DNA of 64,000 bases from Corynebacterium sp. (GCF_030532965.1 NZ_JAUNKC010000002.1:18913-82912), one strand, 5' to 3'. Positions 136 to 63,986 are shown, counted from the first letter of the stretch. A program made the numbers and translations. The notes: a model not told the origin generated them from the letters alone.

Positions 136-2760
136 TTAGACCTCTGGGCTTGGTTCTGCCACTGGCTCGGGAGCTTGAGTGGACATTTCACCCACGAAAT
201 CCGGCAGTGGCTTCGGACGTGGAGTGAAGGTGAATTCGGCCTTGTCCGTGTCCTTAGATTCGCCATCCCAACCGGTCACGTCGACGGTAATGATTTCACC
301 GGCACCGACCTCGCCGAACAGGATCTTCTCGGAAAGGGCATCCTCAATTTCGCGCTGGATGGTGCGGCGCAGCGGGCGGGCACCCAGAACGGGGTCGAAG
401 CCGCGCTTAGCAAGCAAGTTCTTTGCTTTCGCAGTGAGTTCGATTCCCATGTCTTTGGCGGCGAGTGCCTTTTCGACGCGGCCGACGAGCAAGTCGACCA
501 TCTCCACGATCTGCTCTTGGGTGAGCTGGTGGAAGACCACAATGTCGTCGATACGGTTGAGGAACTCGGGGCGGAAGTGCTTCTTCAGCTCGTCGTGCAC
601 CTTGTTCTTCATGCGCTCGTATTGGCCAGCGGCGTCCTGTTCACCAACCGCACTGAACCCCATGCCCACGGCCTTGGAAATGTCCTGGGTACCGAGGTTG
701 GAGGTAAAGATCAGCACGGTGTTCTTGAAGTCCACCAGTCGGCCTTGGCCGTCGGTGAGGCGGCCGTCTTCAAGCACCTGGAGCAGGGTGTTGTAGATTT
801 CCTTGTGCGCCTTTTCGATTTCGTCGAAAAGCACAACGCTGAATGGCTTACGGCGCACCTTTTCGGTGAGCTGGCCGCCCTCTTCATAACCCACATAGCC
901 GGGAGGGGCACCGAACAGGCGGGAGGCGGTGAAGCGATCATGGAACTCACCCATGTCGATCTGGATGAGGGCGTCGTCCTCGCCGAACAGGAAGTTAGCC
1001 AGCGCCTTGGACAGCTCGGTCTTACCCACACCGGAGGGGCCTGCGAAGATGAAGGAGCCGGATGGGCGGCGTGGGTCCTTCAGACCAGCGCGGGTGCGGC
1101 GGATTGCGCGGGAGACTGCCTTGACGGCGTCGTCCTGGCCGATGATCCGCTTGTGCAGCTCCTCTTCCATGTGCAGCAGGCGGGAGGATTCTTCCTCGGT
1201 CAGCTTGAATACTGGGATACCGGTCCAGTGGGCAAGCACCTCAGCAATTTGCTCCTCGCCGACCTCAGCGATGTCCTCTAATTCGCCAGAACGCCACTGC
1301 TTTTCTTTCTCCGCGCGCTCCTCGTTGAGCTTGCGTTCCTTGTCGCGCAGCCCGGCGGCCTTTTCGAAGTCCTGGGCGTCGATGGCGGCTTCCTTTTCGC
1401 GGCGCACCGCGGCGATCCGCTCGTCAACTTCGCGCAGGCCCTCCGGCGCGGTCATCCGCTTGATGCGCATACGGGCACCAGCTTCGTCGATGAGGTCAAC
1501 GGCCTTGTCGGGCAGGAAGCGGTCGTTGATGTAGCGATCCGAGAGGTTCGCTGCCGCAGCCAGGGCACCATCGGTGATGGATACCCGGTGGTGGGCTTCA
1601 TAACGATCCCGCAGACCTTTGAGGATGTCGATGGTCAGTTCCACCGAAGGCTCAGGAACATTCACCGGCTGGAACCGGCGCTCCAACGCCGCGTCCTTTT
1701 CAATGTGCTTGCGGTACTCGTCCAAGGTGGTGGCACCGATTGTCTGGAGCTCGCCGCGTGCCAGTTTTGGCTTAAGCAGGGAGGCTGCGTCGATGGCGCC
1801 CTCGGCGGCACCCGCGCCGACCAGGGTGTGGATCTCGTCGATAAACAGGATGATGTCGCCGCGCTGGTTGATTTCCTTCAGCACCTTCTTCAGGCGCTCC
1901 TCAAAATCACCACGGTAGCGGGAACCTGCCACCAGCGAGCCAAGGTCGAGGGAGTACACCTGCTTGTTTTTCAGGGTCTCCGGGACCTTGCCGTTAACGA
2001 TGTCGAGGGCAAGGCCCTCAACAACTGCGGTTTTACCCACGCCGGGTTCGCCGATGAGAACTGGGTTGTTCTTGGTGCGGCGGGACAGAACCTGCATGAT
2101 GCGTTCAATTTCCTGCTCCCGGCCTACAACCGGATCCAGCTTGCCTTCCTTAGCCGCCTGGGTGAGGTTACGGCCGAACTGGTCGAGCACCAGGGAATTG
2201 GAACGCTCGCCAGCGCCACCCCGGCCGCCCCGGCTACCAGCGCCAGCGCCTAAGCCGCCCGAGCTTGGGCTGGCTCCGGCACCCACCGCGTCGTTGCCTT
2301 CCGATTCGGGGCTGTCGCCGCCCTCATAGCCGCTGAGTAATTGGATAACCTGCTGGCGTACCCGAGGTAGATCGGCACCAAGCTTCACTAATACCTGGGC
2401 TGCCACGCCCTCACCCTCGCGAATGAGGCCAAGCAGCAGGAATTCGGTACCAATGTACTTGTGTCCCATCTGCAGCCCCTCGCGGAGCGACAGCTCCAGG
2501 ACCTTCTTCGCGCGTGGCGTAAAGGGAATATGCCCAACGGGTGGTTCGGTTCCTTGGCCGATAATCTCCTCCACCTCTTGGCGCACCGCCTCCAGGGAGA
2601 TCCCCATCGACTCCAACGCCTTCGCAGCGACACCTTCGCCCTCGTGGATGAGCCCCAACAAAATGTGTTCGGTGCCAATGTAATTGTGGTTCAGGCCGCG
2701 TGCCTCCTCCTGCGCCAGCACGATGACGCGGCGAGCACGGTCAGTAAAACGCTCGAACAT
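136..2760 (-). CDS. clpC: ClpC, AAA+ unfoldase of the Clp protease
   Basis: This is an 874-residue class I Clp ATPase that unfolds substrates and feeds them to ClpP. Two Clp-N repeats fill about residues 1-145. The first AAA+ module has Walker A GEPGVGKT and Walker [14 protein letters not shown]-like coiled middle segment follows, then the second module with Walker [14 protein letters not shown] and [12 protein letters not shown] glycine/serine linker separates the N domain from the first ATPase. I chose the ATG at 2760 ([11 protein letters not shown], the usual ClpC start) because AGGAAG lies 5 nt upstream; a GTG at 2766 is too close to that site. The gene stands alone with its own terminator. 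A half-site like the ClgR core (TTCGCT) lies upstream, but I see no full operator. Confidence 0.97.
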
Positions 2761-2902
2761 ATTCACTTCCTAACTTGAGATTCGCTAATGCTCACCACTT
2801 TAACCCGCAGAACAAACCTTCAGAACCCACACCGTGACCTATGGGCGTCGAAAAGCAGAAAAACCCCAGCTTAAAGACCTGTACGCCGGTAGCGAACACA
2901 CG

Positions 2903-3100
2903 TTACGGCACCCGGGCGGCAAAATTCGCGGCCTCAATGCCACTCGTGCGCTCCGGAAACCGACGCGGCGAAGCTGGTGCAACCGCCTTGGGTTTCTTGC
3001 TTTTCGACGCCCGCATCACCGCCCCCACCAGCTTCGCGCTCAACACCGGGTGGTCAACCTGCATCCGGGACACGAACCGATTCCGCCACCCCTTTAACAT
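2903..3100 (-). CDS. Small basic hypothetical protein downstream of glpD
   Basis: This possible 65-residue ORF begins with an ATG at 3100 that overlaps the end of glpD, so it could be translationally coupled. The product is rich in Arg and Lys (RASKSKKPK near residue 30), with no membrane segment and no family I recognise. A copy of the 11-mer motif B lies inside it. I see no independent ribosome site. It may be only the read-through 3' region of glpD, so I hold it as tentative. Confidence 0.3.
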   Translation of the reverse strand: MLKGWRNRFVSRMQVDHPVLSAKLVGAVMRASKSKKPKAVAPASPRRFPERTSGIEAANFAARVP

Positions 3101-4641
3101 GACACCTCCGCAACAATCGCGGCAACCTCGGCGAGCGCCGCTTCCCGATCCGCCGGAACCAACCCAATTCGGGTACGCCGATCCACCACATCGTCGGCAT
3201 CCAATGCGCCTTCGTGCGTGATGGCAAATTCAACCTCCGCCCGGGTAACGTCCAGGCCAGCCACCTTCTCCAATGGTCGGTCAATCGTGGCGCGGTCGAC
3301 CACCATGCGGGCCTCCAAGCCGTACCGCGCGATTAAACTCTCGGGCAAACCTGCGTGATCGGCGGCGGTTTTCCCCTGGGATTCACTATGCCCCGGCGCG
3401 CCCACCAGCGGATACGCGTGCGTGCGGCACGGCCCGGCGGGCAGCTGGCGGCGGCGGATAACCTCATCGACGGTTTCCTGCGCCATCAGCCGGTACTCGG
3501 TGAATTTCCCGCCGACCACGGAAATGACCCCGGTTTCCGACTCTACAACCGCGTGCTTGCGGGATAAATCCGCCGATCCTTTGGACTCGCCGGAATCAAT
3601 AAGTGGCCGCAGCCCCGCGAATGCCCCCACCACATCCGCCTCGGTGAGATCGGTGGCCAATGCCCGATTGAAAGCAGCAAGCAGGAATTCCTCGTCTTCT
3701 TTCGTCGCTTCCGGCACCTCTGGGATGTCACCATCCAATTCCACATCGGTCAAACCCAGATAGACGCGCCCTAATTGTTCCGGCATGGCGAACACAAACC
3801 GGGAGATGCTACCCGGCAGCGGCACGGTCAGCGCCCCAGTGGGATTGCCCAGCCGGTCTGCGGGGATCACAAGATGGGTGCCCCGAGAGGTGCGCAAGTT
3901 AATTCCCGGATCCACCTGACCAGCCCATACTCCGGCGGCGTTGACCACCGCTTTGGCTGTGATGGTCAGCCGCGCGCCGGTTTTTTCGTCGACAAGCTCC
4001 GCGCCCGTACCCGACACATTCAGCGCCGACACATACGTCAAAATCTTGGCCCCGGCGCCCACTGCGGTGCGGGCGACGGCCGTGACCAAGCGGGCATCGT
4101 CGATCATCTGGCCGTCGAAATTCACAAACGCGCCCTTCAGCCCATTCGGGTTTGCGGCCGGGCACAACGCCAACGCTTCACGACGCCCCACGAAACGGCT
4201 ACGCGGCAACGTGGCAGATTTCGTGCCCGCCAACAGCCGCAACACGTCGCCCGCCCAAAAACCCAGCCGCACCGCAGCTTTCTGCAACAGATTGGTATCC
4301 GGGCCGACCAGCGTCACCTGTGGCAAAGCCGACACCAGGTGCGGGGCGATCACCTCCATCAACAACCTACGTTCCTTCGCGGAATGGAACGCGATTTTCA
4401 CCTCGCCCTTCGCCAAATACCGCAAACCGCCATGCACCAACTTCGACGAAAACCGGCTGGTCCCGTGCGCTAAATCCCGCTGGTCGACCACCAGGACGCG
4501 AAGCCCCCGGGTCGCCGCATCCAACGCCACCCCCACCCCGGTGATTCCCGCCCCCACAACCAACAGGTCAACCTCCGGGTTGTTTGACAGCTCATCCCAC
4601 CAGTTTGTGCGAACATGAGCATTCAACGTGGTTGACGACAT
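3094..4641 (-). CDS. glpD: Aerobic glycerol-3-phosphate dehydrogenase
   Basis: This 515-residue FAD-dependent enzyme oxidises sn-glycerol 3-phosphate to dihydroxyacetone phosphate and passes electrons to quinone at the membrane. The N-terminal dinucleotide-binding motif is VVGAGITGVGVALDAATRG, followed by GTSRFSSKLVHGGLRYL, typical of the GlpD family. SVVGGKFTEYRLMA near residue 390 belongs to the conserved flavin region. GGGGAG lies 5 nt before the ATG. It is divergent from a flavoenzyme resembling alkyl-DHAP synthase, whose substrate would derive from the DHAP made here. A similar grouping (Rv2249c to Rv2252) exists in M. tuberculosis. Confidence 0.94.
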   Translation of the reverse strand: MSSTTLNAHVRTNWWDELSNNPEVDLLVVGAGITGVGVALDAATRGLRVLVVDQRDLAHGTSRFSSKLVHGGLRYLAKGEVKIAFHSAKERRLLMEVIAPHLVSALPQVTLVGPDTNLLQKAAVRLGFWAGDVLRLLAGTKSATLPRSRFVGRREALALCPAANPNGLKGAFVNFDGQMIDDARLVTAVARTAVGAGAKILTYVSALNVSGTGAELVDEKTGARLTITAKAVVNAAGVWAGQVDPGINLRTSRGTHLVIPADRLGNPTGALTVPLPGSISRFVFAMPEQLGRVYLGLTDVELDGDIPEVPEATKEDEEFLLAAFNRALATDLTEADVVGAFAGLRPLIDSGESKGSADLSRKHAVVESETGVISVVGGKFTEYRLMAQETVDEVIRRRQLPAGPCRTHAYPLVGAPGHSESQGKTAADHAGLPESLIARYGLEARMVVDRATIDRPLEKVAGLDVTRAEVEFAITHEGALDADDVVDRRTRIGLVPADREAALAEVAAIVAEVSC

Positions 4642-4729: not shown

Positions 4730-6337
4730 ATGACACCTGCTTTCCCCACCCCACCCATGCATTTCAACCTCTGGGGAACCCCTGAAGAGGCACAACCACT
4801 GTCCGAAAGCATGCTCAAACTGCTCAAACCCACCCTCGGACTCAGCCACAAACCACCCACCCACCTCACCCTCAACGACGTCACCATAACCCCCAGCGCG
4901 CTTTCCGACGACGACCTGGCGGAGCTTGCAACAATCATCGACCCCGCGCGCATCAGCGCATCCGACACCCAGCGGGCGCCGCGGGCGCGCGGCAAAAGCT
5001 ACCTAGACCTCATCGAATGGCGAACCGGCACCCCCATCACTGCCCCCGATGCTGTAATAGCGGCGGTGTCGGAGGACGAAATCCTCCAGCTGCTCCGGTG
5101 GTGCACCGACAACCACGTTGCCGTCGTGCCGTTCGGCGGCGGAACCAGCGTTGTCGGCGGCATCACGCCACTAGCCGGGCAGCACCGGGCGGTAATATCC
5201 ATCGACCTGGCGCTTTTCGACGAAATCTACGACTTCGACGAAACCTCCATGGTGGCCGAGGTGGGGGCCGGATTAACCGGCCCGCACGCCGAACTCCTAT
5301 TAGAGGAATGGGGGGTACAAATAGGGCACTATCCGCAGTCATTTCCCTACGCCACCATCGGCGGCTATGCGGCCACCCGCTCCTCTGGGCAATCATCGGC
5401 CGGATACGGCCGCTTCGACGACATGGTGTGCGGGCTGACCGTCGTCACCCCCACCGGTGTAATACGGTTGGGGGACCGGTCGCCCGCATCGGCCGCGGGC
5501 CCCGACTGGCGGGAGATCTTTCTCGGTTCGGAAGGCGTATTCGGGATCATTACCAGGGTGAAGCTACGGGTTCACCCCATTCCGGAGGCCAAGTATTACG
5601 AAGCGTTCAGCTTCCCCACCTTCGCCGCGGGCGCGAAGGCATTGCGGCTGGTGGAACAGACCGGCACCGGGCCCACCGTGATAAGACTGTCGGATGAGAT
5701 TGAAACGGCGCTGAATTTGTCGTCGACAAGCAATATCGGCGACGAAAGCCCCAGCGGGTGCCTCTGCCTCACCATGTTCGAAGGCACCAAAGAACACGCC
5801 GCCGCCCGCCACAAAGAAACCCGGGAACTCATCCTCAAAAACGGCGGCAGATCCCTCGGCGAAACCCCCGCCCGGGTGTGGGAACAAGGGCGCTTTGCCG
5901 CCCCCGTCTTCCGCGACGCGCTTCTCGACGCCGGTGCGCTGTGCGAAACGCTCGAAACCGCGACCTATTGGGGGAACGTCGAAAAGCTCAAAACGGCGGT
6001 CGGGCGGGCGCTTGTCGACGCACTAGCAGGCGCCGACACCATGGCCATCATCATGTGCCACATCAGCCACGTCTACCCCGAAGGCTGCTCCCTCTACTTC
6101 ACCGTCGTCGCCGGGCAAACCGCCACCCCCCGCGAACAATGGGCACGGGCGAAAAAAGCCGCCAGCCGGGCAATCCTCGACGCCGGCGGAACCATAACCC
6201 ACCACCACGGGGTAGGCACCGACCACGCCGACTACATGGGCAACGAAACCGACCCACTGACCGCAACCATGCTCACCGCGCTCAAAACCACCCTCGACCC
6301 CGCCGGAATACTCAACCCAGGAAAACTCCAACCATGA
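4730..6337 (+). CDS. FAD-binding oxidase resembling alkyl-DHAP synthase
   Basis: This 535-residue flavoprotein is of the VAO/PCMH type. The FAD-binding segment contains VVPFGGGTSVVGGI near residue 130 and GGYAATRSSGQSSAGYGR near residue 210. The C-terminal part has ITHHHGVGTDHADYMG, matching the histidine-rich active-site stretch of alkylglycerone-phosphate (ADPS) enzymes, which exchange the acyl group of acyl-DHAP for a fatty alcohol in ether-lipid synthesis. The bacterial function is inferred; actinobacterial homologues such as Rv2251 are generally left as flavoproteins. I chose the ATG at 4730; an in-frame start at 4628 would extend back into glpD. Its stop overlaps the ATG of the next gene (ATGA), so the two are coupled. 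Confidence 0.85.
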   Translation: MTPAFPTPPMHFNLWGTPEEAQPLSESMLKLLKPTLGLSHKPPTHLTLNDVTITPSALSDDDLAELATIIDPARISASDTQRAPRARGKSYLDLIEWRTGTPITAPDAVIAAVSEDEILQLLRWCTDNHVAVVPFGGGTSVVGGITPLAGQHRAVISIDLALFDEIYDFDETSMVAEVGAGLTGPHAELLLEEWGVQIGHYPQSFPYATIGGYAATRSSGQSSAGYGRFDDMVCGLTVVTPTGVIRLGDRSPASAAGPDWREIFLGSEGVFGIITRVKLRVHPIPEAKYYEAFSFPTFAAGAKALRLVEQTGTGPTVIRLSDEIETALNLSSTSNIGDESPSGCLCLTMFEGTKEHAAARHKETRELILKNGGRSLGETPARVWEQGRFAAPVFRDALLDAGALCETLETATYWGNVEKLKTAVGRALVDALAGADTMAIIMCHISHVYPEGCSLYFTVVAGQTATPREQWARAKKAASRAILDAGGTITHHHGVGTDHADYMGNETDPLTATMLTALKTTLDPAGILNPGKLQP

Positions 6338-7227: not shown

Positions 7228-8479
7228 TGGTCTGGGCGCGGTTGTGCATGTCTTGGATGTCGAGTTGCGCTACGTGTAGTTTTGCCTCCGGGTACCAGGT
7301 GTGACATGCGCAGCTGTGTGTGTTGTGGGCTGTGCGGGTGTCGCCGTTGAGGATGGCGTCGGCTTGGGCTTTGGCCCCTCGTCGTATAGCGGGGTGGAGG
7401 TTGGCGCGGATCGTGCCGTCGGTTTGGTGGAGGGCGACGAGGTTTCGGCCCTCGATGTGGCTGAGGTGGCCGTTTTTGGGGCGGGTTCGGTCGTCGTCGT
7501 TAAGTTTGTTGTGGTAGCGGCAGAGTGGGGCGAGGTTCCAGGGCTCGGTGGGGCCGCCGGAGGCGTAGGAAATTATGTGGTGGATGTCGCAGATGGCTGC
7601 GGGCACCGTGCAGTCGGGGTGGGCGCAAATGAGGTGTTCAAGGATGCTCAGCGCGCGTTGGGATGCGTCGGCGCGGCGCTGAATGGCGATTGGTTCGAGG
7701 CAGACGGTGCCGCCGTCTTCGGTGGGCAGCATCGGGACCGCCCAGCCGTGGGGGTTGATGGTGTCGGCGACGATGTCTCTAATGTTGACTAGTTCGCCGT
7801 CGGAGTTGACGATCCGCCCGTCGGTCATGCAGGTGGCTTGTGCGAGGGGAACGAGAAGTGCAACGTTGTGGCGCAGGTCGAGCGGGTCGGTATTGGTGGC
7901 GGTACCCCCGTCCACGATGCGGTTATATGCGGCTAGCGCGTAGCCTTCGGCGAGGTCGACGGCGTGGCGGGCGTGCAGTAGCGCGAGGGCGTCTTCTTTG
8001 AGCAGGACTTGAATGCGGGTCAGGTGCGCCGCGGGGAGTTTCCACAGTGCGTGTTTCATTCCGTCAACGTCGGGGGTTGCGGAAAACCGGAGGTGGCTTT
8101 TGCGCGGGGCGATGGAACGGGCGGTTTCAAGGTAGCTGGTGATGAACCGTTTGAGTTCGTCGACCGTGAGTTGATCGGCGGTGTTGAGCAGCTCGGTTTT
8201 GAATGCGCCGTGGTCGATGTCTTTGTTTGCGGCGGTGCGGATGCCTTTGGCGATCGTGGTGAGTTTCGCCAGCGGCAGCCGGTGGTTGCTGGCGATTGTG
8301 AGGTCGGCGTCGCTGAGCAGTGCGGCGTCGCGGATGAGGTGGCTGGCGTCGCTTTTCGACGTCCCCAGGGCCGCAGCGAGCGCGTCTGCGCGCACCCCCA
8401 AGTCTTTAATAGCGCGGAGGATGCCCGCGCCGTCGGCCAGCGCCGCGGCGTACCTATTAAGGGATTGGGGGAGGTCCAT
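7211..8479 (-). CDS. DUF222/HNH endonuclease-domain protein (13E12 type)
   Basis: This 422-residue protein has an N-terminal DUF222 region with a helix-turn-helix-like start (ALAAALGTSKSDASHLI) and a C-terminal HNH domain with CAHPDCTVPA, ICDIHHIISYASGG, then LAPLCRYHNKLN. The pattern is that of the actinobacterial REP13E12-type family, whose function is not settled; the HNH fold implies metal-dependent DNA cleavage. A histidine/cysteine tail (SCACHTWYPEAKLH) follows the HNH. It is convergent with and overlaps the lipid kinase gene. A paralogue of similar plan lies at 58233-59420. The ATG is preceded by a modest TAGGGTG site. Confidence 0.88.
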   Translation of the reverse strand: MDLPQSLNRYAAALADGAGILRAIKDLGVRADALAAALGTSKSDASHLIRDAALLSDADLTIASNHRLPLAKLTTIAKGIRTAANKDIDHGAFKTELLNTADQLTVDELKRFITSYLETARSIAPRKSHLRFSATPDVDGMKHALWKLPAAHLTRIQVLLKEDALALLHARHAVDLAEGYALAAYNRIVDGGTATNTDPLDLRHNVALLVPLAQATCMTDGRIVNSDGELVNIRDIVADTINPHGWAVPMLPTEDGGTVCLEPIAIQRRADASQRALSILEHLICAHPDCTVPAAICDIHHIISYASGGPTEPWNLAPLCRYHNKLNDDDRTRPKNGHLSHIEGRNLVALHQTDGTIRANLHPAIRRGAKAQADAILNGDTRTAHNTHSCACHTWYPEAKLHVAQLDIQDMHNRAQTIKQQE

Positions 8480-8576: not shown

Positions 8577-9917
8577 CTAATGCAGGTTTTTCACGCCATA
8601 AATCGTGGCGCTTAGCGCCATGACGGTTGCGGTGGCAAAAGCGAGGAACGCGCCGTGGCTGGTGGTGGTTCCAAAGGAGTGCGCCGCGATGAGGATGGCA
8701 GTTCCCACCGCCCCAGCGAATTGTTGCAGGGTGCTAAGAATTGCCGAGCCGTGCGGGTACTGGTCGGGGCTGAGGCTGGCAAGCGCCGTTGTCATCAGCG
8801 GTCCCATGCATAGTGAAACCCCCACCGCCACGATGGCGAACCCGGTGGCGCACAGCAGGATTCCGACAATTGGTGTGGTGACCAGATAGGCGGTGAGGGT
8901 GACTAGGCCAAGTCCTGCCACGAGGCACACCAGTCCGGGCCGGACCAGGGGTTTGATTCCCACTTGGTCAAATATGCGGCCGACGACGGGGGCGGCGAAG
9001 GCTTGGAATAGGCCATTCGGCATGATGGCGAGCCCGCTGACCACGGTGCTGGCATTAAGGGATTGCTGGAGATAGATGGGGACGATGGTCAGGGAACCTA
9101 AGAACAGCGCCATGATGAAGACGACAACCACGACGCAGTGGGTGAACGTCGACAAGCGGAAAACGCGCAGGTCTAGCAACGCTGTTCCTGCCGCAGCGCG
9201 CCGCAATTGGCGCCAGATGAAGACGGCGATGACCACGCTCGCCGCCGCGCCGACAACCGGGCCGCCGCCGCTGAGCGCGTAGATCAGGCCGCCGAATCCG
9301 AGGGCGGAAAGCACGACGGAGAGGACGTCGAGCGGGGCTTTGACCGATTCGCCGACGTTGCGGACCAGGAGGTAACCGGCGATCGTTAACGCCGCCACAA
9401 TGGGGGTCATGAACCAGAACAGGAAGTTCCATCGGAAAAATTGCAGCAAAATCCCGCCGGTCGTCGGGCCGAAAGCGGGAGCCATCGCGATGACGATGGT
9501 GATCCACCCCATCATTTCGCCCCGGCGCTGAGCGGGAACGACCGTCATGAGGGTGGACATGAGGAGCGGGAACACTAAGGCGGTGCCGCTGGCTTGGATG
9601 ACCCGCCCGAGTAGCAAGACGGGAAAATTCAGCCCGGTGGCCGCCACGATCGTCCCACTAAGGAACAAGGTGGTGGCGGTAAGGAACACCGCGCGGGTGC
9701 TGAACCGCTGCACAATGAAGCCGGTGGTGGGGATCACCACCGCCATGGTGAGAAGGAAACCCGTGGTCAGCCACTGCGCCTGGGTGGGGGCGATGTGGAA
9801 ATCCGCCATGACCGCCGGGAGGGCGACTGTCATGATGGTTTCGTTGAGGATCATCACCGCGGTGGCGGCAACAAGAACGGCGATGAGCCATGTGGTTTCC
9901 CGGGTCATTTTTTCCAT
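8577..9917 (-). CDS. MFS drug-efflux-type transporter (DHA2-like)
   Basis: This 446-residue polytopic membrane protein has about 12-14 hydrophobic segments. The start (LNETIMTVALPAVMADFH) and AQWLTTGFLLTMAVVIPTTG are the usual opening of EmrB/QacA-type multidrug proton antiporters, and VIQASGTALVFPLLMSTLM matches the motif C region. The substrate cannot be told from sequence. It stands alone between the HNH gene and the nucleoside locus, in the same direction as the latter, separated by 33 bp. The ATG at 9917 was chosen; an ATG three codons later is an alternative. Confidence 0.9.
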   Translation of the reverse strand: MEKMTRETTWLIAVLVAATAVMILNETIMTVALPAVMADFHIAPTQAQWLTTGFLLTMAVVIPTTGFIVQRFSTRAVFLTATTLFLSGTIVAATGLNFPVLLLGRVIQASGTALVFPLLMSTLMTVVPAQRRGEMMGWITIVIAMAPAFGPTTGGILLQFFRWNFLFWFMTPIVAALTIAGYLLVRNVGESVKAPLDVLSVVLSALGFGGLIYALSGGGPVVGAAASVVIAVFIWRQLRRAAAGTALLDLRVFRLSTFTHCVVVVVFIMALFLGSLTIVPIYLQQSLNASTVVSGLAIMPNGLFQAFAAPVVGRIFDQVGIKPLVRPGLVCLVAGLGLVTLTAYLVTTPIVGILLCATGFAIVAVGVSLCMGPLMTTALASLSPDQYPHGSAILSTLQQFAGAVGTAILIAAHSFGTTTSHGAFLAFATATVMALSATIYGVKNLH

Positions 9918-9950: not shown

Positions 9951-11597
9951 CTAACCCGCAAGCCCCAGCGCCGCCGCCAGCTCTGCCCGCAATTGCGCCA
10001 GACGCTCCTCGGCCACCGTTCTATCCGCCGTGACTACCTCCAGGTAGCATTTCAGTTTCGGTTCGGTGCCGGACGGCCGGACCACGATCCGGTCGTTGGC
10101 GGTGGTTTTCAACCAGAGCCCATCGGTTGGCGGCAGCCCGGCGAAGCCTTCCGCCAGGTCGACGCATTCGCAAACGGTTGCCCCGGCAAGCTGCGCCGGT
10201 GGTTGTGAACGTAGGCGTTCAAGCGCTTGGGTTATGTCGGCGGGGTCGGACATTCTAAAGGTCAGGGGGCTGGTCGCGTACACGCCGTAGGTGTCGTAAA
10301 TTTCGGCGAGGAAGTCAGCTAAGTTGCGTGCTTTTCGACGCAACCCCGCCGCGATCAGCGCCACCCGCACGCTTGCGGTGATCCCGTCCTTATCGCGCAC
10401 CAACGCCGGGTCGCAGCAATACCCCAGGGCTTCTTCGTAGCCGAAAACCACATTGGGGGTGCGGGCGATCCACTTGAACCCGGTGAGTGTTGCCGCGTAT
10501 TCAAGACCGTGGCGCTTGGCTATTTCCGACAGCAGTCGTGAGGAGACTATCGAGCAGGCAAGGGTCTTGTTACTGCCCGCGTTTTCCCGGGCGATGGTCT
10601 CCCCCACGATCGCGCCTACCTCGTCTCCAGTCAATTGGCGCCATACCCCCGTTTCTTTAATAGCGACGGAGCAGCGGTCGGCGTCGGGGTCCAGCGCCAG
10701 GATCAGTTCCGCCCCATGCTCGTCGGCGGTGCGGTAGGCCAGATCCAACGCGCCTTTTTCTTCCGGATTGGGAAAGGCGACGGTGGGGAAATCCGGGTCG
10801 GGCTGGATTTGCTCGGGCACCGGGATGATTTCAGAAAACCCCGCCCTATTAAGGGCTTGGGTGAGAACCGCACCCCCAACACCGTGCATGGCGGTGATCA
10901 CGATCGGCATGTCCGATTCGGTTTCGGGCAGCTGCGGCAGGTGGCTTAGCGACTTCCCAAGATAGGTCGAGACAATGCTGTCAGGCACCCAAGTAATGCC
11001 GTCCGTCCTGCGGGGGATCTGGTTCGCGGCAGGTGCCGCTTCAATGCAGGCAGCAATGTCGTGGTCGGCGGGGCTGATCAATTGCACCCCGGTGGCGTTA
11101 TCGTCAGCAACCAGCCGACCGCCGAGATACACCTTATAGCCGTTATCCTGCGGCGGGTTGTGGGACGCAGTAATCATGACACCCGCATCGGCATCGAAGT
11201 ACCGGGTGGCAAAGGCGGTAATGGGGGTTGGTAATTGCGCAGGCAATGCAATCACGTCGCAACCTGCGGCGGCTAGCGTCTGGCAGGTAGCCGCGTGGAA
11301 TTGGGCGCTGCCATGACGAGCATCGCAGCCCACAACCACCTTGGGGGTTGCCACCCGCTGGTTCAGGTAGGCCGCCAACCCGGCGCTGGTCCGGGTGACG
11401 GTAGCCTCGTTCATGCGGCTTTCACCGGCTTCCACCTTGCCACGCAACCCGGCGGTGCCAAACGCCAGGGGGCCGGTAAACCGCCGGGCTAATTCCGTAT
11501 GGTTGCCAGCGCTGATGAGATTCCGCAGCTCCTGTTGGGTTGCAGGGTCAGGGTCGCCGGCAATCCAGGTTTCGGCGGTAGCGATCAAATCGGACAT
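9951..11597 (-). CDS. Phospho-sugar mutase, probably phosphopentomutase role
   Basis: This 548-residue member of the alpha-D-phosphohexomutase superfamily carries the phosphoserine loop TASHNPPQDNGYK, the metal loop LDPDADRCSVA, the sugar loop GYEEALGYCC and the phosphate-binding RPSGTEPKLKCYLE near the C terminus. PGM/PMM members can isomerise hexose or pentose phosphates. Its place immediately after deoC and deoA suggests it turns (deoxy)ribose 1-phosphate into the 5-phosphate that DeoC uses; this is inferred from position. Only 3 bp separate it from deoC, so it should be the last gene of the deoA-deoC-mutase operon. Confidence 0.92.
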   Translation of the reverse strand: MSDLIATAETWIAGDPDPATQQELRNLISAGNHTELARRFTGPLAFGTAGLRGKVEAGESRMNEATVTRTSAGLAAYLNQRVATPKVVVGCDARHGSAQFHAATCQTLAAAGCDVIALPAQLPTPITAFATRYFDADAGVMITASHNPPQDNGYKVYLGGRLVADDNATGVQLISPADHDIAACIEAAPAANQIPRRTDGITWVPDSIVSTYLGKSLSHLPQLPETESDMPIVITAMHGVGGAVLTQALNRAGFSEIIPVPEQIQPDPDFPTVAFPNPEEKGALDLAYRTADEHGAELILALDPDADRCSVAIKETGVWRQLTGDEVGAIVGETIARENAGSNKTLACSIVSSRLLSEIAKRHGLEYAATLTGFKWIARTPNVVFGYEEALGYCCDPALVRDKDGITASVRVALIAAGLRRKARNLADFLAEIYDTYGVYATSPLTFRMSDPADITQALERLRSQPPAQLAGATVCECVDLAEGFAGLPPTDGLWLKTTANDRIVVRPSGTEPKLKCYLEVVTADRTVAEERLAQLRAELAAALGLAG

Positions 11598-15433: not shown

Positions 15434-15462
15434 GGCGTCGAAAAGCAGTGCTTTTCGACGCC
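15434..15462. repeat. Inverted pair of motif B forming a 13-bp hairpin
   Basis: GGCGTCGAAAAGC (15434-15446) and GCTTTTCGACGCC (15450-15462) are perfect reverse complements around a 3-nt loop. The site follows the nupC stop codon. It could act as a transcription terminator, although there is no T-run. A pairing of two copies of the dispersed 11-mer at a gene end recalls the inverted uptake sequences of Neisseria terminators. Confidence 0.8.
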
Positions 15463-15467
15463 TACCT

Positions 15468-15532: not shown

Positions 15533-15557
15533 AGCAAGGCACACAAATGTTTACAGA

Positions 15558-18555: not shown

Positions 18556-18593
18556 CTGGCTCGCTTTTCGACGCCCCCACACCCTCACTCCCT

Positions 18594-51709: not shown

Positions 51710-51727
51710 AGCGTCGACAAGCAAAAA

Positions 51728-52491: not shown

Positions 52492-53421
52492 TTACTTCGA
52501 CTCCCTTTCGGTGGCCTGATACTGGACAGCGTGATTAGTCATTTCCATGAAAGCATCCTCCAAAGACGCCTGCCGCTCCGAGAGCTGATACAACGCAACC
52601 TGGTGCTGGAATGCGACCGCACCCACCTGGTCGGTCTGGGAGTTATCGATCAGCAATAACGGCCGACCTTCCTGATCCACGTCGGTACGCGCAACGATCC
52701 CCTGCTGCTCCAAACCCGACCGCAGGCGCTCATTATCAGAACTGCGCACAATCACCGTCGATTTAGAATTTTCTTTAATAAAGGAGTAGGTCGAACAATC
52801 CGCAACCAGTTTGCCTTTACCGATAACAACCAAGTGATCCGCTGTCTGCGACATCTCGCTCAGCAAGTGCGACGACACCAAAATCGTACGCCCTTCGCTC
52901 GCCAACCCCCGCAAAAACTCGCGTACCCACCGAATACCCTCCGGGTCAAGGCCGTTCACCGGCTCATCCAGAATCAAAATCTCCGGATCCCCCAGAAGAG
53001 CCGTGGCCAAACCAAGCCGCTGACCCATGCCAAGCGAGAAACCGCCTGCCTTCTTCTTCGCCACCCCGGTCAAACCAACCAGGTGCAACACCTCGGCGAC
53101 CCGAGATTTCTTAATCCCATTCGATTGTGCCACCCAGGTTAAATGGTCGACCGCCCGGCGGTTTGGGTGCACCGCCTTGGCATCCAACAACGTTCCCACC
53201 TTGAATAATGGGTCTTTCATCGAGCGGTATGGGACGCCGTCGATAAGCGCCGTTCCCGACGTTGGCGTGTCCAACCCCAGAATCATCCGCATCGTCGTCG
53301 ACTTTCCTGCACCGTTGGGGCCCAAAAACCCCGTGACGATGCCCGGACGCACATCAAAAGACAAATCATCCACCGCACGAACATCACCGTACTGCTTGGA
53401 TAAACCTCGCACTTCAATCAT
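52492..53421 (-). CDS. ABC exporter ATP-binding protein
   Basis: This 309-residue ATPase has Walker A GFLGPNGAGKSTTMRMILGL, signature FSLGMGQRLGLATALLG (LSGGQ-like, here SLGMG) and Walker B EILILDEPVNGLDPEG, with SSHLLSEMSQTADHLV as the switch histidine region. It belongs to the drug-exporter (DrrA/BcrA) type. The start is the ATG at 53421 (MIEVRGLSKQYGD). It leads a two-gene operon and diverges from glnX. Confidence 0.93.
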   Translation of the reverse strand: MIEVRGLSKQYGDVRAVDDLSFDVRPGIVTGFLGPNGAGKSTTMRMILGLDTPTSGTALIDGVPYRSMKDPLFKVGTLLDAKAVHPNRRAVDHLTWVAQSNGIKKSRVAEVLHLVGLTGVAKKKAGGFSLGMGQRLGLATALLGDPEILILDEPVNGLDPEGIRWVREFLRGLASEGRTILVSSHLLSEMSQTADHLVVIGKGKLVADCSTYSFIKENSKSTVIVRSSDNERLRSGLEQQGIVARTDVDQEGRPLLLIDNSQTDQVGAVAFQHQVALYQLSERQASLEDAFMEMTNHAVQYQATERESK

Positions 53422-53514: not shown

Positions 53515-54899
53515 GTGAAGGCAGAAACATTGGAAGCCCACACCAGCCCCATCGCCCACCTTGTGCCAGATGACACCCAAGATCGGTGGCTCGACAAAAC
53601 CGCCCGTCGCCGCAGCGTCATCCGCCGCCTCTGGCACGGATACATTAACTATCCCCGCCGCTGGACCAAAAAATTTCTCCGCTTCCTCCACACCACGCCC
53701 GGCAAAATGACCGCAATGGTACTCCTGCTCAGCATCTTCACCCTCTCCGCCGGGTTGTCCATGTCCAATATTGCAGCCGACCGCCGCCTAGACTTCGACC
53801 ACCTCATTAATAACACCGAACCGGTCAGCTACATGGCCCACAACCTCTACACCTCACTCTCCTCCGCCAACACCGCCGCATCCTCCGGATTCGTACTGGC
53901 CGGAACCGACTCCGAAGCCGCCCGGGCCGACTACTTCACAGCCTTCCAAGAAGCAGGACACGCCATCGCCCTCACCGCAGGCGGCATATCCATCGACGAC
54001 ACCCAAGAACTCGCGCTGATCACCGAACTGTCCCAAAAACTACCCATCTACACCGGGCTTGTCGAAACCGCCTGGGCCAACAACCGCCAAGGCAACCCCG
54101 TCGGCGTGGCCTACATGTCCGAAGCCTCCACCCTCATGCGGGAAGAACTCCTGCCACTAGCCGCGCGCCTATACACGCTGACCAGTGAGAACGTCGAAAA
54201 GCAACAACAGTCACTCACCGAACCCCTATGGCTACCCATCTCCGGGCTCGCCGCCGCCCTCATCGCGCTCGTACTCGCCCAAATCTGGATGTCTGCCACC
54301 ACCAACCGCCGCTTTAATAAGGGGATGCTGCTAGCATTCGCCCTCATGGCGATCGCCACCACCTGGGTTGTCACCGCCAACGCCATCACCTGGCAAGCAG
54401 GCTCCAAAGCCTACGAAAAAGCCTCCGCCCCATTAGAGAACCTCACCGACGCCCGCATCCTCGCCCAACAAGCCCGCACCCAAGAAATGCTGGCGCTGGT
54501 GTGGCGGCAATCCCTAGAAAGCTCCGGCACCACCTTCGCCACCGCCACCTCCTCTATTAAAGAAACTCTCGCCACCTTCAACCACCCCACCGCCCGCGAA
54601 GCCGAGACCGCACTAACCACCTGGGCCAATTCCCACAATGACATCCTCGCAGCGCTCAACGTCGGCGACTACGAAACCGCTCAATCGCTCGCCCTGAAAT
54701 CCGAAACCGCCCAAGCATACGAAGACCTCGACACCGCGCTCGCCACGCTAATCGACGAAAACCGCACCATCATGCGCGCCTACCTCGACCAAGGTGTAAC
54801 CGCCTCCACCTTCGTATCCACCATGGTCCTGCTGATAAGCATCATCTCCGTATTAAGCCTATGGATCGGAATCCGACCCCGACTGCAGGAGTACCTCTA

Positions 54900-54900: not shown

Positions 54901-58179
<3,279 letters not shown>

Positions 58180-58232: not shown

Positions 58233-59420
58233 TTAGTCGCGGGGCGGTGGTTTTTCGATCGCTCCCATCCGCGCTGCGTAGGCGGCTAGTCCTCGGTTGT
58301 TAGCGCGGTGTCTGTTTCTTCTAATAGTGCCGTCGGGCATTTGGTAGTGTGTCAGTCCGGTCGCTGGGTCGGTGATGACTCTGCCGTTTTTAATAGTGGG
58401 GCCGTCGTCGTTTTTGAGGTTGTGTTTTCGGCACAGCGGACAGAGGTTGTCGGGGGTGGTTTTTCCGCCCGCTGCGAAGGACTGGATGTGGTGGGTTTCG
58501 CAGCGGATTGCGTTGATGGTGCAGTCGGGGTGTTGGCACACGAGGTGGCTGAGGATGCTGATGAATCGATCGTTGACGTCGGCAAGCCGTTTGATTTCGA
58601 GTACGTCTTGTGGCCGCATGACGCCGGTGTGGTCTTTGTAGACGGTGACGGCGAATCCGTATTTTTCGAGCCGCCGGTTCGCTAGGTCGTCAATATTGAC
58701 GACTACTCCATTCGTGTCGACGACGGTGCCGTCGATGTTTTTCGTCAATTCCCAGTCGGGGATGATGATGCAGGGGCGCTGTCGTAGGTCGCGCGGGTTT
58801 TCGGGGTTTTCCCACGCCTCGGCGTATTCGATTTCTTTAATAGAGGTTGGCGTCGCAATCCGCCGATAGAGAGCCTTGGCGTGGCCTTCGGCTTCGTCGA
58901 CGGCGTTGTGCGAGTGGACGAGCGCCCGGGCTTCGGGGGTGAGTGAGCTGCGCAGGTGTTCGGCTTGTTCGGCGGGTAGTTTGGCGATGATGTAGCTCAT
59001 TCCGTCGGCATCGGGGGTGGCGGAGTAGCGCAGATGCCATTTGCGGTTGCGGGTGTATCCGCCATTAAGCTTTTCGACGACCTCCGTGACGTGTTGTTTG
59101 TTTTCGTCGACGGTGCGGTTGCGGGCGTCGTCGAAAAGCTGTGCCCGCAGGGCATGCCTGTCGACGTCGGGGTTTGTCAGCTTGCGCGGCGTGATCGCAA
59201 TGTCGCGGAGGATTTCGAAGCAGATTCCGTCAGCGTGGGCGAGTTCTTCGGTTTCGTAGACTTTCGCGGTGGAGATCATTCGGCTCGCGGTGGCTTGCGA
59301 AATCCCCAGTGCGGCGGCAAGTTCGACTTTGTCCATGCTGGTTTCTTTAATAGCGAGGAGAAGCTCCGCGCCTCGCCGCGCTACCTGCGCGTATGCGGTG
59401 AAGATTTCCGGCATGTCCAT
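58233..59420 (-). CDS. DUF222/HNH endonuclease-domain protein, second copy
   Basis: This 395-residue protein has the same plan as the one at 7211-8479: N-terminal helix-turn-helix-like ELAAALGISQATASRMIS, a central DUF222 region (HLRYSATPDADGMSYIIAKL), and an HNH with CQHPDCTINA, CETHHIQSFAAGG and LCPLCRKHNLKN. The two share the arrangement of blocks but differ at many residues. It contains two copies of motif C and two of motif B. The DNA target and role are unknown. The gene is convergent with pknG. Confidence 0.88.
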   Translation of the reverse strand: MDMPEIFTAYAQVARRGAELLLAIKETSMDKVELAAALGISQATASRMISTAKVYETEELAHADGICFEILRDIAITPRKLTNPDVDRHALRAQLFDDARNRTVDENKQHVTEVVEKLNGGYTRNRKWHLRYSATPDADGMSYIIAKLPAEQAEHLRSSLTPEARALVHSHNAVDEAEGHAKALYRRIATPTSIKEIEYAEAWENPENPRDLRQRPCIIIPDWELTKNIDGTVVDTNGVVVNIDDLANRRLEKYGFAVTVYKDHTGVMRPQDVLEIKRLADVNDRFISILSHLVCQHPDCTINAIRCETHHIQSFAAGGKTTPDNLCPLCRKHNLKNDDGPTIKNGRVITDPATGLTHYQMPDGTIRRNRHRANNRGLAAYAARMGAIEKPPPRD

Positions 59421-60844: not shown

Positions 60845-62217
60845 TAGGCTTTGCCTCCTGTTGCCTGGATAGCGGTGATGGCAACGGTATTGACAATGTC
60901 GGGTACGGTTGCGCCGCGGGAGAGGTCATTGACCGGCTTATTAAGGCCTTGGAGGATAGGTCCAACCGCGAGGGCGTGGCCGGTGCGCTGCGCGGTCTTG
61001 TATCCGATGTTTCCGGCCTCAAGATCCGGGAAGATAAAGACGTTTGCCTGGCCAGCGACCTTGGATTCGGGGAGCTTCTTGGCCGCAACACCCGGATCCA
61101 TGGCGGCGTCGAACTGCAGGGGGCCGTCGACAAGCAAAGCGGGGTCTTTTTCGTGGGCAATGCGGACTGCTTCGGTCGCGCGGTCGACGTCGGGGCCAGT
61201 GCCGGAAGTTCCGGTGGAGTAGCTAAGGATCGCTACCCTCGGATCAATGCCGAATTGGGCTGCGGTGCGGGCGGAGATGACGGCGATTTCCGCCAGCTGT
61301 TCCGCGGTGGGGTTGGGGTTGACGGCACAGTCGCCGAAGGCCCACAGTTTTCCACGCATGACCATGATGAAAATCGACGAAACGACGGAAGCGCCGGGGA
61401 CGGTTTTAATGATCTGGAAGGAGGGTTTAATGGTGTGGGCGGTGGTGTGCGCCGCACCGGACACCATGCCATCGGCCAGACCTTTATGGATCATCATGGT
61501 GGCGTAGTAGGAGATGTCCTTCATGGTTTCTTTGGCTTCTTCCAGGGTCATGCCCTTGTGTTTGCGAAGCTCGTAGAATTCTTGGGCAAATTCCTCGGCG
61601 CGGGCGTCGTTAAGCGGATCGGCAATATTCGCATCCGACAAATCAAGCCCCAGCTCCACGCCGCGGGCCAGGACGGTTGCTGGGTCGCCCAGGATGGTCA
61701 GCTGGCAAATACGTTCCCGCAGCAGCTGATCGGCTGCGGTGAGGATTCGGTCGTCGTCGCCTTCCGGCAAAACGATATGCGCCTGGTGTTGCTTCGCGCG
61801 GTTTAATAGCCAGTGCTCGAAAACGTCGGCATTCATGACTTGCTGCGCTTCGGTGGTGCGCGCCGCGTCGACGGCGGTGGTTAACGACTGCTCGCCGATG
61901 ACAATGGCTGCGATTTTCGCCCCCAGCTCCGCCGCCTCAATCCGGGCCAGTTCGGTGATGGTTGCTTCTTCCGCCGCCTGGATCACCATAGCCACCCCGA
62001 GTGCCGCCGCTGAACGAGCGTCAAAGTTTAGATTTCCGGTGCCGGTGTATACCACTGGATCATCTGATGCGTGTTTGAGAACATCGGCGATTTCTGGTGC
62101 GTCATGTACCAGTGGACGAATGTTGACGCCTAATGCGTTGGCAAATTCGGCAACTTCCGTTGGATTAAGACGGCGGCCGATGGCGGTGAGCAACACGGAG
62201 CGAGTAGTTTGGGTCAC
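60844..62217 (-). CDS. pta: Phosphate acetyltransferase
   Basis: This 457-residue protein links acetyl-CoA and acetyl phosphate. The C-terminal catalytic domain, from about residue 130, has [40 protein letters not shown] and [20 protein letters not shown], then [15 protein letters not shown]. The shorter N-terminal part is the reduced DRTGG-like region of corynebacterial Pta. The pta-ackA order and the overlap match C. glutamicum. fprA lies divergently 296 bp away, and that gap also holds a CTATTAAAG copy. Confidence 0.96.
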
Positions 62218-62513
62218 CAGAAATCCCTTCTTTGAAGTATGAACGCGAGTGTGAGACAGGCGTCAAAAGCGTGCCGCCTGTGAATCAACCCATAAGTTTA
62301 CAAGGTTTAGTTCCCCTGTGGGTGCTTCGGATTAGCAAAAATACTTGGGTGGAGAAAAGTTTTTCTAGCACGCAGGGTAGCAATTACTTTCTTTAATAGG
62401 GCGGATGACTATTGCCCAGCGGCTATTGGGCGTAAAGTGCTAAAGGGCGCGTACGTAATTCACGCGCACTATGTTTGTGTTGTTTTTAGCGTTCTAAGGA
62501 TTTCGAAGCGACT

Positions 62514-63896
62514 ATGAGCTCTACCCCGTTAGATTCTTCCCGCCCATTACGCGTCGCGGTGGTCGGTGCTGGCCCGGCCGGCATTTATGCTTCTGATTTG
62601 TTAATGAAGTCTGGTACCGATGTCGAGATCGATTTGTTTGAGCGGATGCCTGCACCGTTTGGGCTCATCCGCTATGGCGTGGCCCCGGATCATCCCCGTA
62701 TTAAAGCGATTGTCAATTCCTTGCACGCAATCATGGAGAAGCCTCAGCTGCGGTTCTTGGGCAATGTTGCGGTGGGAACCGATGTGACGGTTGAACAATT
62801 GCGCCAGTTCTACGACGCCATCGTGTTCTCCACCGGCGCGGTAGCTGACCGCGATTTGGATATTCCGGGTCAGGATTTGGCCGGTTCGCATGGCGCCGCG
62901 GAGTTCGTTGGTTTCTATGACGGCAATCCGGATTTCAAGCGGGATTGGGATTTGTCCGCGGAAAAGGTTGCGGTTATCGGGGTGGGTAACGTTGCGTTAG
63001 ACGTGGCACGTATTTTGGCCAAGACTGGCGACGAGCTGCTGGTGACCGAGATTCCCGACAACGTGTATGCGTCGTTGAAGAATAATAAGGCCACCGAAGT
63101 GCACGTATTTGGTCGCCGCGGCCCAGCACAGGCGAAATTCACCCCGTTGGAGCTGAAGGAATTGGATCACTCCCCCACCATCGAGGTTATCGTCGATCCG
63201 GAAGACATTGATTACGACGCCGCCAGCGAGCAGGCCCGGCGGGATTCGAAATCGCAGGATTTGGTGTGCCAGACCTTAGAGCAGTACGCGATGCGGGATC
63301 CGCAGGGCGCGCCGCATAAGCTTTTCATTCATTTCTTCGAGTCCCCAGTCGAGATCCTCGGCGATAACGGCAAAGTCGTGGGCTTGAAGACCGAGCGCAT
63401 GGAACTGGATGGTTCCGGCGGGGTTACCGGCACCGGCACATACACGACCTGGCCGGTGCAGTCGGTATACCGCGCGGTGGGCTACCGTTCCGACGCGGTC
63501 GCGGGTGTCCCGTTTGATGCCGAGTCCGCAGTCATTCCAAACGACGGCGGCCACGTGCTTGACCCCGCCTCCGGCCAGCCGGTTCCGGGTTTGTACGCCA
63601 CGGGGTGGATTAAGCGCGGCCCGGTCGGCTTGATCGGTAACACCAAGTCCGATGCTAAGGAGACCACGGAGATGCTGTTGGCCGATTATGCTGCGGGCAA
63701 GTTGCAGGCACCGGCGCAGCCTACCAAGGAGGCGGTGTTGGAATTCCTGGATGCACAAGGTATTACGTTTACCACCTGGGATGGCTGGCACCGGCTGGAT
63801 AATGCCGAACGCGCCTTGGGCGCACCGGAAGGCCGGGAACGGAAGAAGATCGTGGAGTGGGATGAGATGGTGTCCCACGCCCGGCACGACGCCTAG
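62514..63896 (+). CDS. fprA: FprA, ferredoxin/adrenodoxin-type NADP reductase
   Basis: This 460-residue flavoprotein passes electrons between NADPH and ferredoxin. VAVVGAGPAGIYASDLLMKS is the FAD site, FGLIRYGVAPDHPRIK follows, VAVIGVGNVALDVARIL is the NADP site, and YATGWIKRGPVGLIGNTKSD is the C-terminal signature of the adrenodoxin reductase family. AAGGA lies about 12 nt before the ATG. It is monocistronic and stands next to pta-ackA as in C. glutamicum. Confidence 0.96.
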   Translation: MSSTPLDSSRPLRVAVVGAGPAGIYASDLLMKSGTDVEIDLFERMPAPFGLIRYGVAPDHPRIKAIVNSLHAIMEKPQLRFLGNVAVGTDVTVEQLRQFYDAIVFSTGAVADRDLDIPGQDLAGSHGAAEFVGFYDGNPDFKRDWDLSAEKVAVIGVGNVALDVARILAKTGDELLVTEIPDNVYASLKNNKATEVHVFGRRGPAQAKFTPLELKELDHSPTIEVIVDPEDIDYDAASEQARRDSKSQDLVCQTLEQYAMRDPQGAPHKLFIHFFESPVEILGDNGKVVGLKTERMELDGSGGVTGTGTYTTWPVQSVYRAVGYRSDAVAGVPFDAESAVIPNDGGHVLDPASGQPVPGLYATGWIKRGPVGLIGNTKSDAKETTEMLLADYAAGKLQAPAQPTKEAVLEFLDAQGITFTTWDGWHRLDNAERALGAPEGRERKKIVEWDEMVSHARHDA

Positions 63897-63986
63897 GCCC
63901 CTAGCTTTTCGACGCCCCCACTATTAAAGAAATCTTTGTAGCTGGGGGTGTCGCCGTTTCCGCCTTCCCTATTTGGCGCTCTTTCG

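Follow-up and report, generated by a model that had tools for sequence, protein, structure and literature searches.

Why should a single 11-base word, GCTTTTCGACG, recur over and over again in a 64-kb stretch of Corynebacterium DNA, in both orientations and both within and between genes? The stretch (positions 18913-82912 of contig C13, hereafter the window) comes from the genome of a Corynebacterium sp. designated G000 (3,214,386 bases, 59 contigs), and a preliminary description of it had likened the word to a DNA uptake sequence. As reported there, the exact word is present 31 times between positions 822 and 63914 (18 copies on the plus strand and 13 on the minus strand) in genes as well as gaps. 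By our own gene calls, 12 of the 31 copies are intergenic. The expectation is also well below one copy, as had been stated, with 100 dinucleotide shuffles of the window giving a mean of 0.09 (standard deviation 0.32) and a maximum of 2. Our sequence analysis indicates, with a probability that we place at about 0.78, that this word is one form of a motif, GCTT-NN-CGACG, that functions as a DNA uptake sequence in a large clade of Corynebacterium. With somewhat less confidence, we regard it as likely that this motif represents a third, independently evolved uptake-sequence system and the first in Gram-positive bacteria, one that would probably work via a Tad/Flp pilus in most Corynebacterium species, that has at least two dialects whose rewriting is visible in one species pair, and that may set gene-exchange barriers in the form of a one-letter code.

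The over-representation extends well beyond the window. Genome-wide, G000 contains 696 copies of GCTTTTCGACG (360 plus, 336 minus) relative to only 23 copies (13 plus, 10 minus) of the same word reversed, which served as a control. A fifth-order Markov model was applied to a 462-kb sample of G000, composed of the window and 20 further stretches, where 126 copies are observed versus 2.8 expected. The word itself proved to be an incomplete version of the signal. Specifically, gapped-word counting in the 462 kb shows that the actual motif is bipartite, consisting of GCTT, exactly two bases and then CGACG, with 283 copies at a spacer of two as compared to 3-17 copies at spacers of 0, 1 and 3-8. 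The central dinucleotide of these 283 sites is TT in 126 cases, GT in 59, AT in 27, GA in 15, GC in 15 and something else in the rest, while a substitution at each of the nine fixed positions takes the count down to background. In the entire genome there are 1,875 copies of GCTT-NN-CGACG (904 plus, 971 minus) versus 96 (48 on each strand) of its reversed control, and in the window there are 66 (29 plus, 37 minus), of which 18 are intergenic. The window is thus denser than the genome, both for GCTTTTCGACG (1 per 2.1 kb versus 1 per 4.6 kb) and for the bipartite motif (1 per 1.0 kb versus 1 per 1.7 kb), so the originally described density of about one word per 2 kb holds for the window but not for the sparser genome average. 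There are also preferences in the flanks, which are T-rich before the core and C-rich after it, the fullest form being tTGCTT[T/G]TCGACGCCnCC. Among the 71 intergenic sites of the sample, some of which lie within 67-bp repeat elements (see below), 67 have TT, GT or AT as the central dinucleotide, a T precedes the motif in 65%, and C is the most frequent base at each of the five following positions (46-73%).

Comparison with related species, which the preliminary description had proposed, shows that the motif is a property of much of this genus. Among 151 Corynebacterium genomes, 103 are of a C type (280-1,891 copies of GCTT-NN-CGACG, with a minimum of about 3.6-fold over the reversed control), nine are of a T type (625-1,337 copies of GCTT-NN-CGATG), two are weak T (159 and 213 copies), six are low C (101-134 C-form sites) and 31 are neither (at most 76 C and 87 T sites). 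In 185 genomes from 30 other genera of the family, the combined count of the C and T forms is never more than about 2.7-fold that of the control. The T form was discovered in genome G006 by an unsupervised gapped-word search, which found 48 copies of GCTT-NN-CGATG in 140 kb versus 0-7 copies at other spacings, and no further dialect stood out in the 97 kb searched of the motif-less genome G014. A tree of TadA from 80 species, a few rows of which have long branches, places the nine T-type species within one 15-species clade (support 100/100) with C-type species interspersed among them, and the C-type species G004 as sister to the T-type pair G006 and G105. By this same tree the motif-less species G014, G039 and G082 each represent a separate loss. 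The TadA of a C. urealyticum metagenome-assembled genome (L182) is 95.8% identical to that of the motif-less G107.

The relationship between G006 and G004 allows the two dialects to be compared site by site. The comparison covers three of seven G006 stretches plus the tad locus, which together provide 61,305 aligned bases with 81.8% identity. Of the 32 T sites of G006 in this alignment, 16 correspond in position to a C-form site of G004, three are unchanged and 13 are non-motif, while both of the two C sites of G006 are also C in G004; by chance only about 8.4 of the 34 words would be left intact. As a control, 367 occurrences of CGATG outside the motif were followed from G006 to G004, of which 23 are CGACG, 168 are unchanged and 176 are otherwise changed. 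The letter switch at retained sites (16:3) differs sharply from that of the control (23:168; Fisher P = 7e-11). With 16 of 19 retained sites switched as compared to 23 of 191 controls, the sites therefore stay put while one letter is replaced, and the dialect has been rewritten site by site between G006 and G004 within the compared stretches. When G004 is taken as the starting point, 16 of its 32 C sites have the T form in G006, a count in which a few sites at overlapping loci are included twice. Retention of sites is also seen across 15 pairs of tad loci (two of them without sites), where 49 of the 82 sites in the alignments persist versus 17.4 expected. Several C-type species (G004, G005, G011, G036, G051, G052, G074, G093 and G109) contain 118-159 T-form sites, a number above that of most C-type genomes, and these extra sites are perhaps remnants of an earlier dialect. 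The T-type G142 retains 352 C sites.

A mechanism that would generate such a pattern can be proposed as follows. Double-stranded DNA outside the cell would be bound at the motif by a surface protein that either belongs to the Tad/Flp pilus or is associated with it, the filament would carry the bound DNA to the membrane, and ComEC would pass one strand into the cell where it could recombine with the homologous locus. Fragments bearing the motif would be imported more often, so that motif alleles would replace motif-free alleles at many places, and the motif would build up on the two strands alike, within genes as far as the encoded protein permits and at a higher density in the gaps. If the preference of the binder shifted by one letter, then the same drive would rewrite the sites singly and give rise to dialects. 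An uptake bias that spreads a word by recombination would therefore account for its number, strand balance, placement, clade limits and dialects and, above all, for the in-place rewriting. In this scheme, uptake itself, the drive that it would exert, a receptor for the motif and the species barrier are inferred; what we observe directly are the motif, its numbers and placement, its phylogenetic pattern, the in-place rewriting in the compared stretches and the tad and comEC genes.

The alternative that survives best, improbable as we consider it to be, is that the motif is a site for an intracellular chromosome-organizing or nucleoid protein, such as an SMC loader, an occlusion factor or a nucleoid protein. 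Such a role would be congruent with the genome-wide spread, the strand balance and a spacing of sites that is slightly more even than random (coefficient of variation 0.906 versus 1.034, standard deviation 0.063, with 1% of 2,000 simulations being as even). The even spacing would suit an uptake sequence as well. However, there is no clear regional bias: in the single-contig relative G090, sampled as 20 stretches of 20 kb taken one every 175 kb, 18 stretches hold 2-11 sites and two hold none. A chromosome-binding protein might select for sites of this sort, but it provides no ready spreading force that would rewrite some 1,000 of them, and yet the great majority of the retained sites in the compared stretches switched between G006 and G004. 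The twofold intergenic excess and the inverted pairs of sites that are described below also suit uptake sequences at least equally well.

A Chi-like recombination hotspot or an FtsK-orienting polar sequence (KOPS) is far less probable. The motif does resemble these signals in being short, over-represented and non-palindromic. Chi sites show a leading-strand orientation bias, KOPS show a strong polarity towards the terminus, and both kinds of word are shorter than the nine fixed bases of GCTT-NN-CGACG. In contrast, the leading and lagging strands carry 140 and 143 sites, respectively, in the 462 kb of G000, where the leading strand was assigned from the total GC skew of each contig in the sample (that of contig C1 being mixed). 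They carry 73 and 72 sites in G090, where it was set by the skew of each stretch. Together with the genome-wide count of 904:971, these values uphold the earlier argument that near-balance of strands speaks against a Chi or FtsK-polar signal, and the suggested check across the replication arms reveals no origin-terminus polarity in either the G000 sample or G090, which largely refutes this explanation. By eye, forward and reverse counts are also close to equal in the strongly positive genomes. Runs of plus-only sites among the matches listed resemble polarity, a reading that was rejected because these listings are incomplete and the sampled stretches show none.

The placement of the motif relative to genes bears on the remaining explanations. 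Gene positions for the window and the rest of the 462 kb come from our own gene calls (358 genes, scored by hexamers), made without curated annotation. By these calls, 71 of the 283 sites are wholly intergenic, 131 are in the sense orientation within genes, 80 are antisense and one straddles a gene end. The gaps that hold these 71 sites make up 13.6% of the sequence (binomial P = 2e-7), so that the density there is twice that observed in genes. Gaps between convergent genes have 1.78 sites per kb, tandem gaps 1.09 and divergent gaps 0.70. All eight pairs of sites that are less than 60 bp apart are oppositely oriented, and three of these pairs are intergenic, one of them in the window. This last pair is the hairpin of two copies that had been noted at 15434-15462 (15436-15446 on the minus strand and 15450-15460 on the plus strand). 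It has a perfect 13-bp stem and a 3-nt loop, with one G-U pair beyond the stem, and it starts 9 bases downstream of the stop codon of a nupC-like gene (14211-15425). The 55-nt hairpin stretch folds at -26.7 kcal/mol with a z-score of -5.1, which is matched by none of 200 shuffles. A structure of this kind would make a good terminator stem and, together with the enrichment in convergent gaps, it is what could be expected if the motif were a transcription-level element, either an arm of an intrinsic terminator or a regulator site. We nonetheless consider this to be very unlikely given that 211 of the 283 sites are wholly within predicted genes, that 80 of them are antisense and that there are only eight pairs within 60 bp, three of which are intergenic; to our knowledge, no regulon has about 1,900 sites.

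Within genes, the 131 sense sites occupy all three phases, and a codon test points to the DNA word rather than the protein word. For example, Leu is encoded by CTT in 32 of 45 cases of Leu-Phe-Asp versus 7 of 24 cases of Leu-Phe-Glu, and in 31 of 69 cases of Leu-Val-Asp versus 10 of 80 cases of Leu-Val-Glu. Among the eight contexts compared, the effect is clear by eye for Phe, Val, Ile, Asp and Ala, whereas it is null for Thr (8/60 versus 7/72); Tyr provides 13 cases. In the Leu-x-Asp frame the demand at the DNA level thus tends to outweigh codon habit. The intergenic sites, the antisense copies, the use of all sense phases and the codon test all bear out the earlier conclusion that the signal is in DNA and not only in protein. 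That the motif is a codon or protein-motif artefact, or the product of a spreading repeat family, is hardly credible, since the 118 of 211 coding sites that read L-x-D in sense are countered by the intergenic excess, the antisense copies and the codon test, and since the copies that sit in the window's 67-bp elements are only 5 of the 31 exact ones, with the other 26 lying outside, and the 71 intergenic sites share no more than weak flank preferences.

We also analyzed the candidate uptake machinery, and ComEC and Tad genes, which are among those that the preliminary description had suggested looking for, are found. A ComEC competence domain is present in all 151 Corynebacterium genomes, for which reason ComEC was rejected as a predictor of the motif. 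The TadA-type secretion ATPase has matches in 148 of the 151 genomes, with 145 above the cut-off. Eighty tad loci, one per species and selected for a TadA match, were retrieved, all of which contain TadZ, TadA and TadB/C. Flp, TadE and TadF are present in all but two of these loci, both of which end at contig ends with one retaining Flp. Of the 53 motif species, 52 encode TadB and TadC in two frames (the locus of G073 is cut by a contig end), whereas 24 of 27 motif-less species have a single frame. The fusion is probably derived because all seven outgroup loci, which have 0-1 motif copies, contain two frames. TadE, TadF and Flp differ between the motif and motif-less clades in a manner that follows phylogeny, with the TadE segment AGAAARahAIG, for example, being common to the split-frame clade and absent from the fused clade. 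Residues of these three proteins were considered as clues to the receptor and rejected, as they are clade signatures and none can be claimed to follow the dialect. By eye, the open frames around the ComEC domain mostly span 650-880 codons in species that lack the motif, as compared to 420-630 codons in many motif species, hinting that the C-terminal part has been lost in much of the motif clade.

The distribution of the motif in mobile DNA was addressed with the two empty stretches of G090, in which about 16 sites are expected in the combined 40 kb (P about 1e-7, for stretches that were chosen after counting). Frames of at least 180 codons were scanned, 10 of 14 in stretch L044 and 10 of 12 in stretch L043. 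L044 contains a transposase, an endolysin-like protein, a protein weakly resembling tail proteins and, at its end, a sulfate symporter, and L043 contains tail- or collagen-like proteins together with families without known function. A phage search with one protein from an empty stretch returned seven records, none of which is of Corynebacterium. An initial reading of these stretches as prophage proved to be too firm, as control stretches of G090 give equal PHROG matches. Overall, these results are no more than suggestive of a scarcity of the motif in mobile DNA.

Several observations weigh against an uptake sequence and must be set beside the above. PHROG matches in the two empty stretches (6/10 and 6/10) are no more frequent than in two control stretches that hold 11 and 7 sites (6/10 and 5/10). 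What does distinguish them is that control stretch L038 is plainly housekeeping by a Pfam scan, as are the proteins behind its PHROG matches. In G000, the gap of 9.65 kb that is the longest without a motif is housekeeping in six of six proteins scanned, with genes that include fumarase, formate-tetrahydrofolate ligase and a proteasomal ATPase. Because of these PHROG controls and this gap, we consider the uptake-sequence reading, and likewise that of a third independent system, to be slightly less likely than we otherwise would. There is no surplus of one-mismatch copies, as all 27 such words together number 206 at a spacer of two versus a mean of 208.6 at other spacers, although we count such an excess as a usual rather than a defining feature of uptake sequences. 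One sense frame, Leu-x-Asp, holds over half of the coding sites, and the codon test is reversed for Leu-Leu-Asp (16/85 versus 21/76). Three of the 15 pairs of relatives retain few sites, namely G012/G036, G020/G042 and G016/G009, the three counts being 1/8, 2/9 and 2/11. As to the machinery, ComEC and tad genes occur in motif-less species as well. The fused or split state of TadB/TadC was rejected as a discriminator, as the 24 motif-less species with the fused frame form one clade in the TadA tree (98/100) and the pattern therefore reflects a single event. A TadA profile search, repeated in seven doubtful genomes, gave no match in the motif genomes G075, G092 and G113, which are 77-95% complete and in 190-380 contigs. 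In G119 (53% complete) it gave no more than a trace, in G021 half of the protein and in G101 two broken pieces. These gaps in motif genomes are likely to be draft gaps. The search of the motif-less G024 also gave no match. Finally, among the papers listed in searches of the open-access PubMed Central (PMC) literature, there is no report of a naturally transformable Corynebacterium. Of the three outcomes that had been named as refuting the original proposal of an uptake sequence (a count near expectation, strong polarity or confinement to the repeat elements), none is observed, the Markov comparison covering the 462-kb sample. The proposal is strengthened by the genome-wide excess, the strand balance, the DNA-level signal, the inverted pairs, the limitation to one genus, the dialects and the Tad and ComEC genes, while the one-mismatch excess is missing and the absence from mobile DNA is only suggestive.

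Within the window, in addition to the hairpin copies, exact copies of GCTTTTCGACG occur on the plus strand at 2999-3009, 18563-18573 and 63904-63914 (all intergenic), 29679-29689 (intergenic by our gene calls), 35238-35248 (in the peptide-synthetase gene 33617-37387), 32126-32136 and 45492-45502 (each within a 67-bp element), and at 5212-5222, 8351-8361, 10330-10340, 14147-14157, 21845-21855, 23265-23275, 28255-28265, 41986-41996, 47491-47501 and 59069-59079. On the minus strand they are located at 822-832 (in the ClpB-like gene 136-2766), 2846-2856 (intergenic), 28627-28637, 43989-43999 and 44203-44213 (each within a 67-bp element), and at 5977-5987, 24629-24639, 36223-36233, 48975-48985, 54192-54202, 56208-56218 and 59129-59139. 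The variant GCTTGTCGACG is found on the plus strand at 6010-6020, 33679-33689, 35593-35603 and 45915-45925, and on the minus strand at 3987-3997, 5721-5731, 9147-9157, 18667-18677 (intergenic), 19368-19378, 31054-31064, 51712-51722 (intergenic), 55524-55534 and 61125-61135. Variant GCTTATCGACG is on the plus strand at 50159-50169 and 57111-57121, and on the minus strand at 12161-12171, 27671-27681, 39393-39403 (within a 67-bp element), 42980-42990 (intergenic) and 53238-53248. Variant GCTTGCCGACG is on the plus strand at 43577-43587 and on the minus strand at 12547-12557, 16592-16602, 39498-39508 (within a 67-bp element), 45556-45566 (intergenic) and 58577-58587. The remaining variants are GCTTCACGACG at 4175-4185 (plus), GCTTTCCGACG at 4900-4910 (plus), GCTTCTCGACG at 5920-5930 (plus) and 40877-40887 (minus), GCTTAACGACG at 11855-11865 and 61605-61615 (both minus), GCTTTGCGACG at 21968-21978 (minus), GCTTGACGACG at 30979-30989 (minus) and GCTTTACGACG at 40405-40415 (plus), with 40405-40415 and 40877-40887 both being in the groEL gene (39633-41330). 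The peptide-synthetase gene 33617-37387 codes for a Pls/PosA-type enzyme whose best solved relative is epsilon-poly-L-lysine synthase.

The window additionally contains 17 repeat elements, which had been described as 65 bp long and which measure 67-68 bp. Their 11-bp inverted ends resemble TGTGTGCTGCG...CGCAGCACACA and enclose a variable central part, and the elements are located at 10-76, 15467-15533, 18593-18660, 18709-18776, 28588-28654, 28702-28768, 28914-28980, 32109-32175, 32214-32280, 32383-32450, 39366-39432, 39471-39537, 43836-43902, 43962-44028, 44069-44135, 44176-44242 and 45463-45529, with several clustered at intervals of about 105-116 bp. The uptake-like motif is present in seven of the 17, and words of the GCGACACGCCG type occur in several of the rest. 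With 26 of its 31 copies elsewhere, GCTTTTCGACG is not confined to these elements, a possibility that had been raised at the outset. No paired element ends were found in six other sampled contig pieces of G000. In a different genome, G063, words such as TAGCGGGGATG and GGGGATGAGCC occur more than 40 times in 120 kb (stretches L066-L071), which is perhaps an array of clustered regularly interspaced short palindromic repeats (CRISPR).

If the motif is indeed an uptake sequence, then a third case, and one in a Gram-positive genus, would imply that self-recognition by a DNA word is a repeated outcome of transformation. Most corynebacteria would be predicted to be naturally transformable, with the motif providing a handle on the conditions and the receptor involved. 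It would also help explain which species exchange genes and could serve as a genetic tool in organisms in which engineering is difficult. The G006/G004 pair makes the change of a thousand-site code directly testable.

How does the corynebacterial motif compare with known systems? The uptake sequences in the open-access PMC papers that we consulted are only those of Pasteurellaceae and Neisseriaceae, and among the papers listed in searches of this literature (preprints excluded) there is no earlier report of the motif or of a corynebacterial or actinobacterial uptake sequence. The uptake signal sequence (USS) of H. influenzae has a conserved core, a weaker flank preference and about 1,500 copies, with ComN proposed as the receptor in Pasteurellaceae, while the receptor for the DNA uptake sequence (DUS) of Neisseriaceae is the minor pilin ComP. 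The corynebacterial motif resembles the Pasteurellaceae USS in having a conserved core with weaker flank preferences. It differs in the word itself, in having a T-rich flank preceding the core and a C-rich flank following it, and in a candidate machine that is of the Tad/Flp type rather than a competence type IV pilus. The two known systems, USS and DUS, are held to have arisen independently of each other (PMC12616744). The DUS of Neisseriaceae are described as words of 10-12 bp with 943 to 4,265 copies, inverted repeats and single-base dialects between species (PMC3630211), and Corynebacterium likewise has a short abundant word, inverted pairs and one-base dialects. The copy number of 1,875 is of the same order as the approximately 1,900 copies of N. 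meningitidis (PMC3630211). The distribution of DUS in mobile elements is described as atypical (PMC7371117). Unlike the DUS, the corynebacterial sequence is unrelated, bipartite with a variable centre fixed at two bases, and located in a Gram-positive host. It also lacks an excess of one-mismatch copies, whereas one-mismatch DUS are given as at least as numerous as perfect DUS in Neisseria genomes (PMC3630211). The closest precedent for the machinery is Micrococcus luteus, an actinobacterium with tad genes, ComEA and ComEC in which Tad/Flp-dependent transformation has been shown by gene deletion with both tad clusters being required; neither uptake sequence nor DUS nor specific sequence occurs as a term in that study (PMC4322843). 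M. luteus has two tad clusters, whereas the present comparison covered one tad locus per Corynebacterium species. We do not class the motif as a member of the DUS or USS because preferential uptake is their defining property and the evidence here comes from genomes. In most of the features of these systems that can be computed, however, the motif matches them, and it would appear to work as they do.

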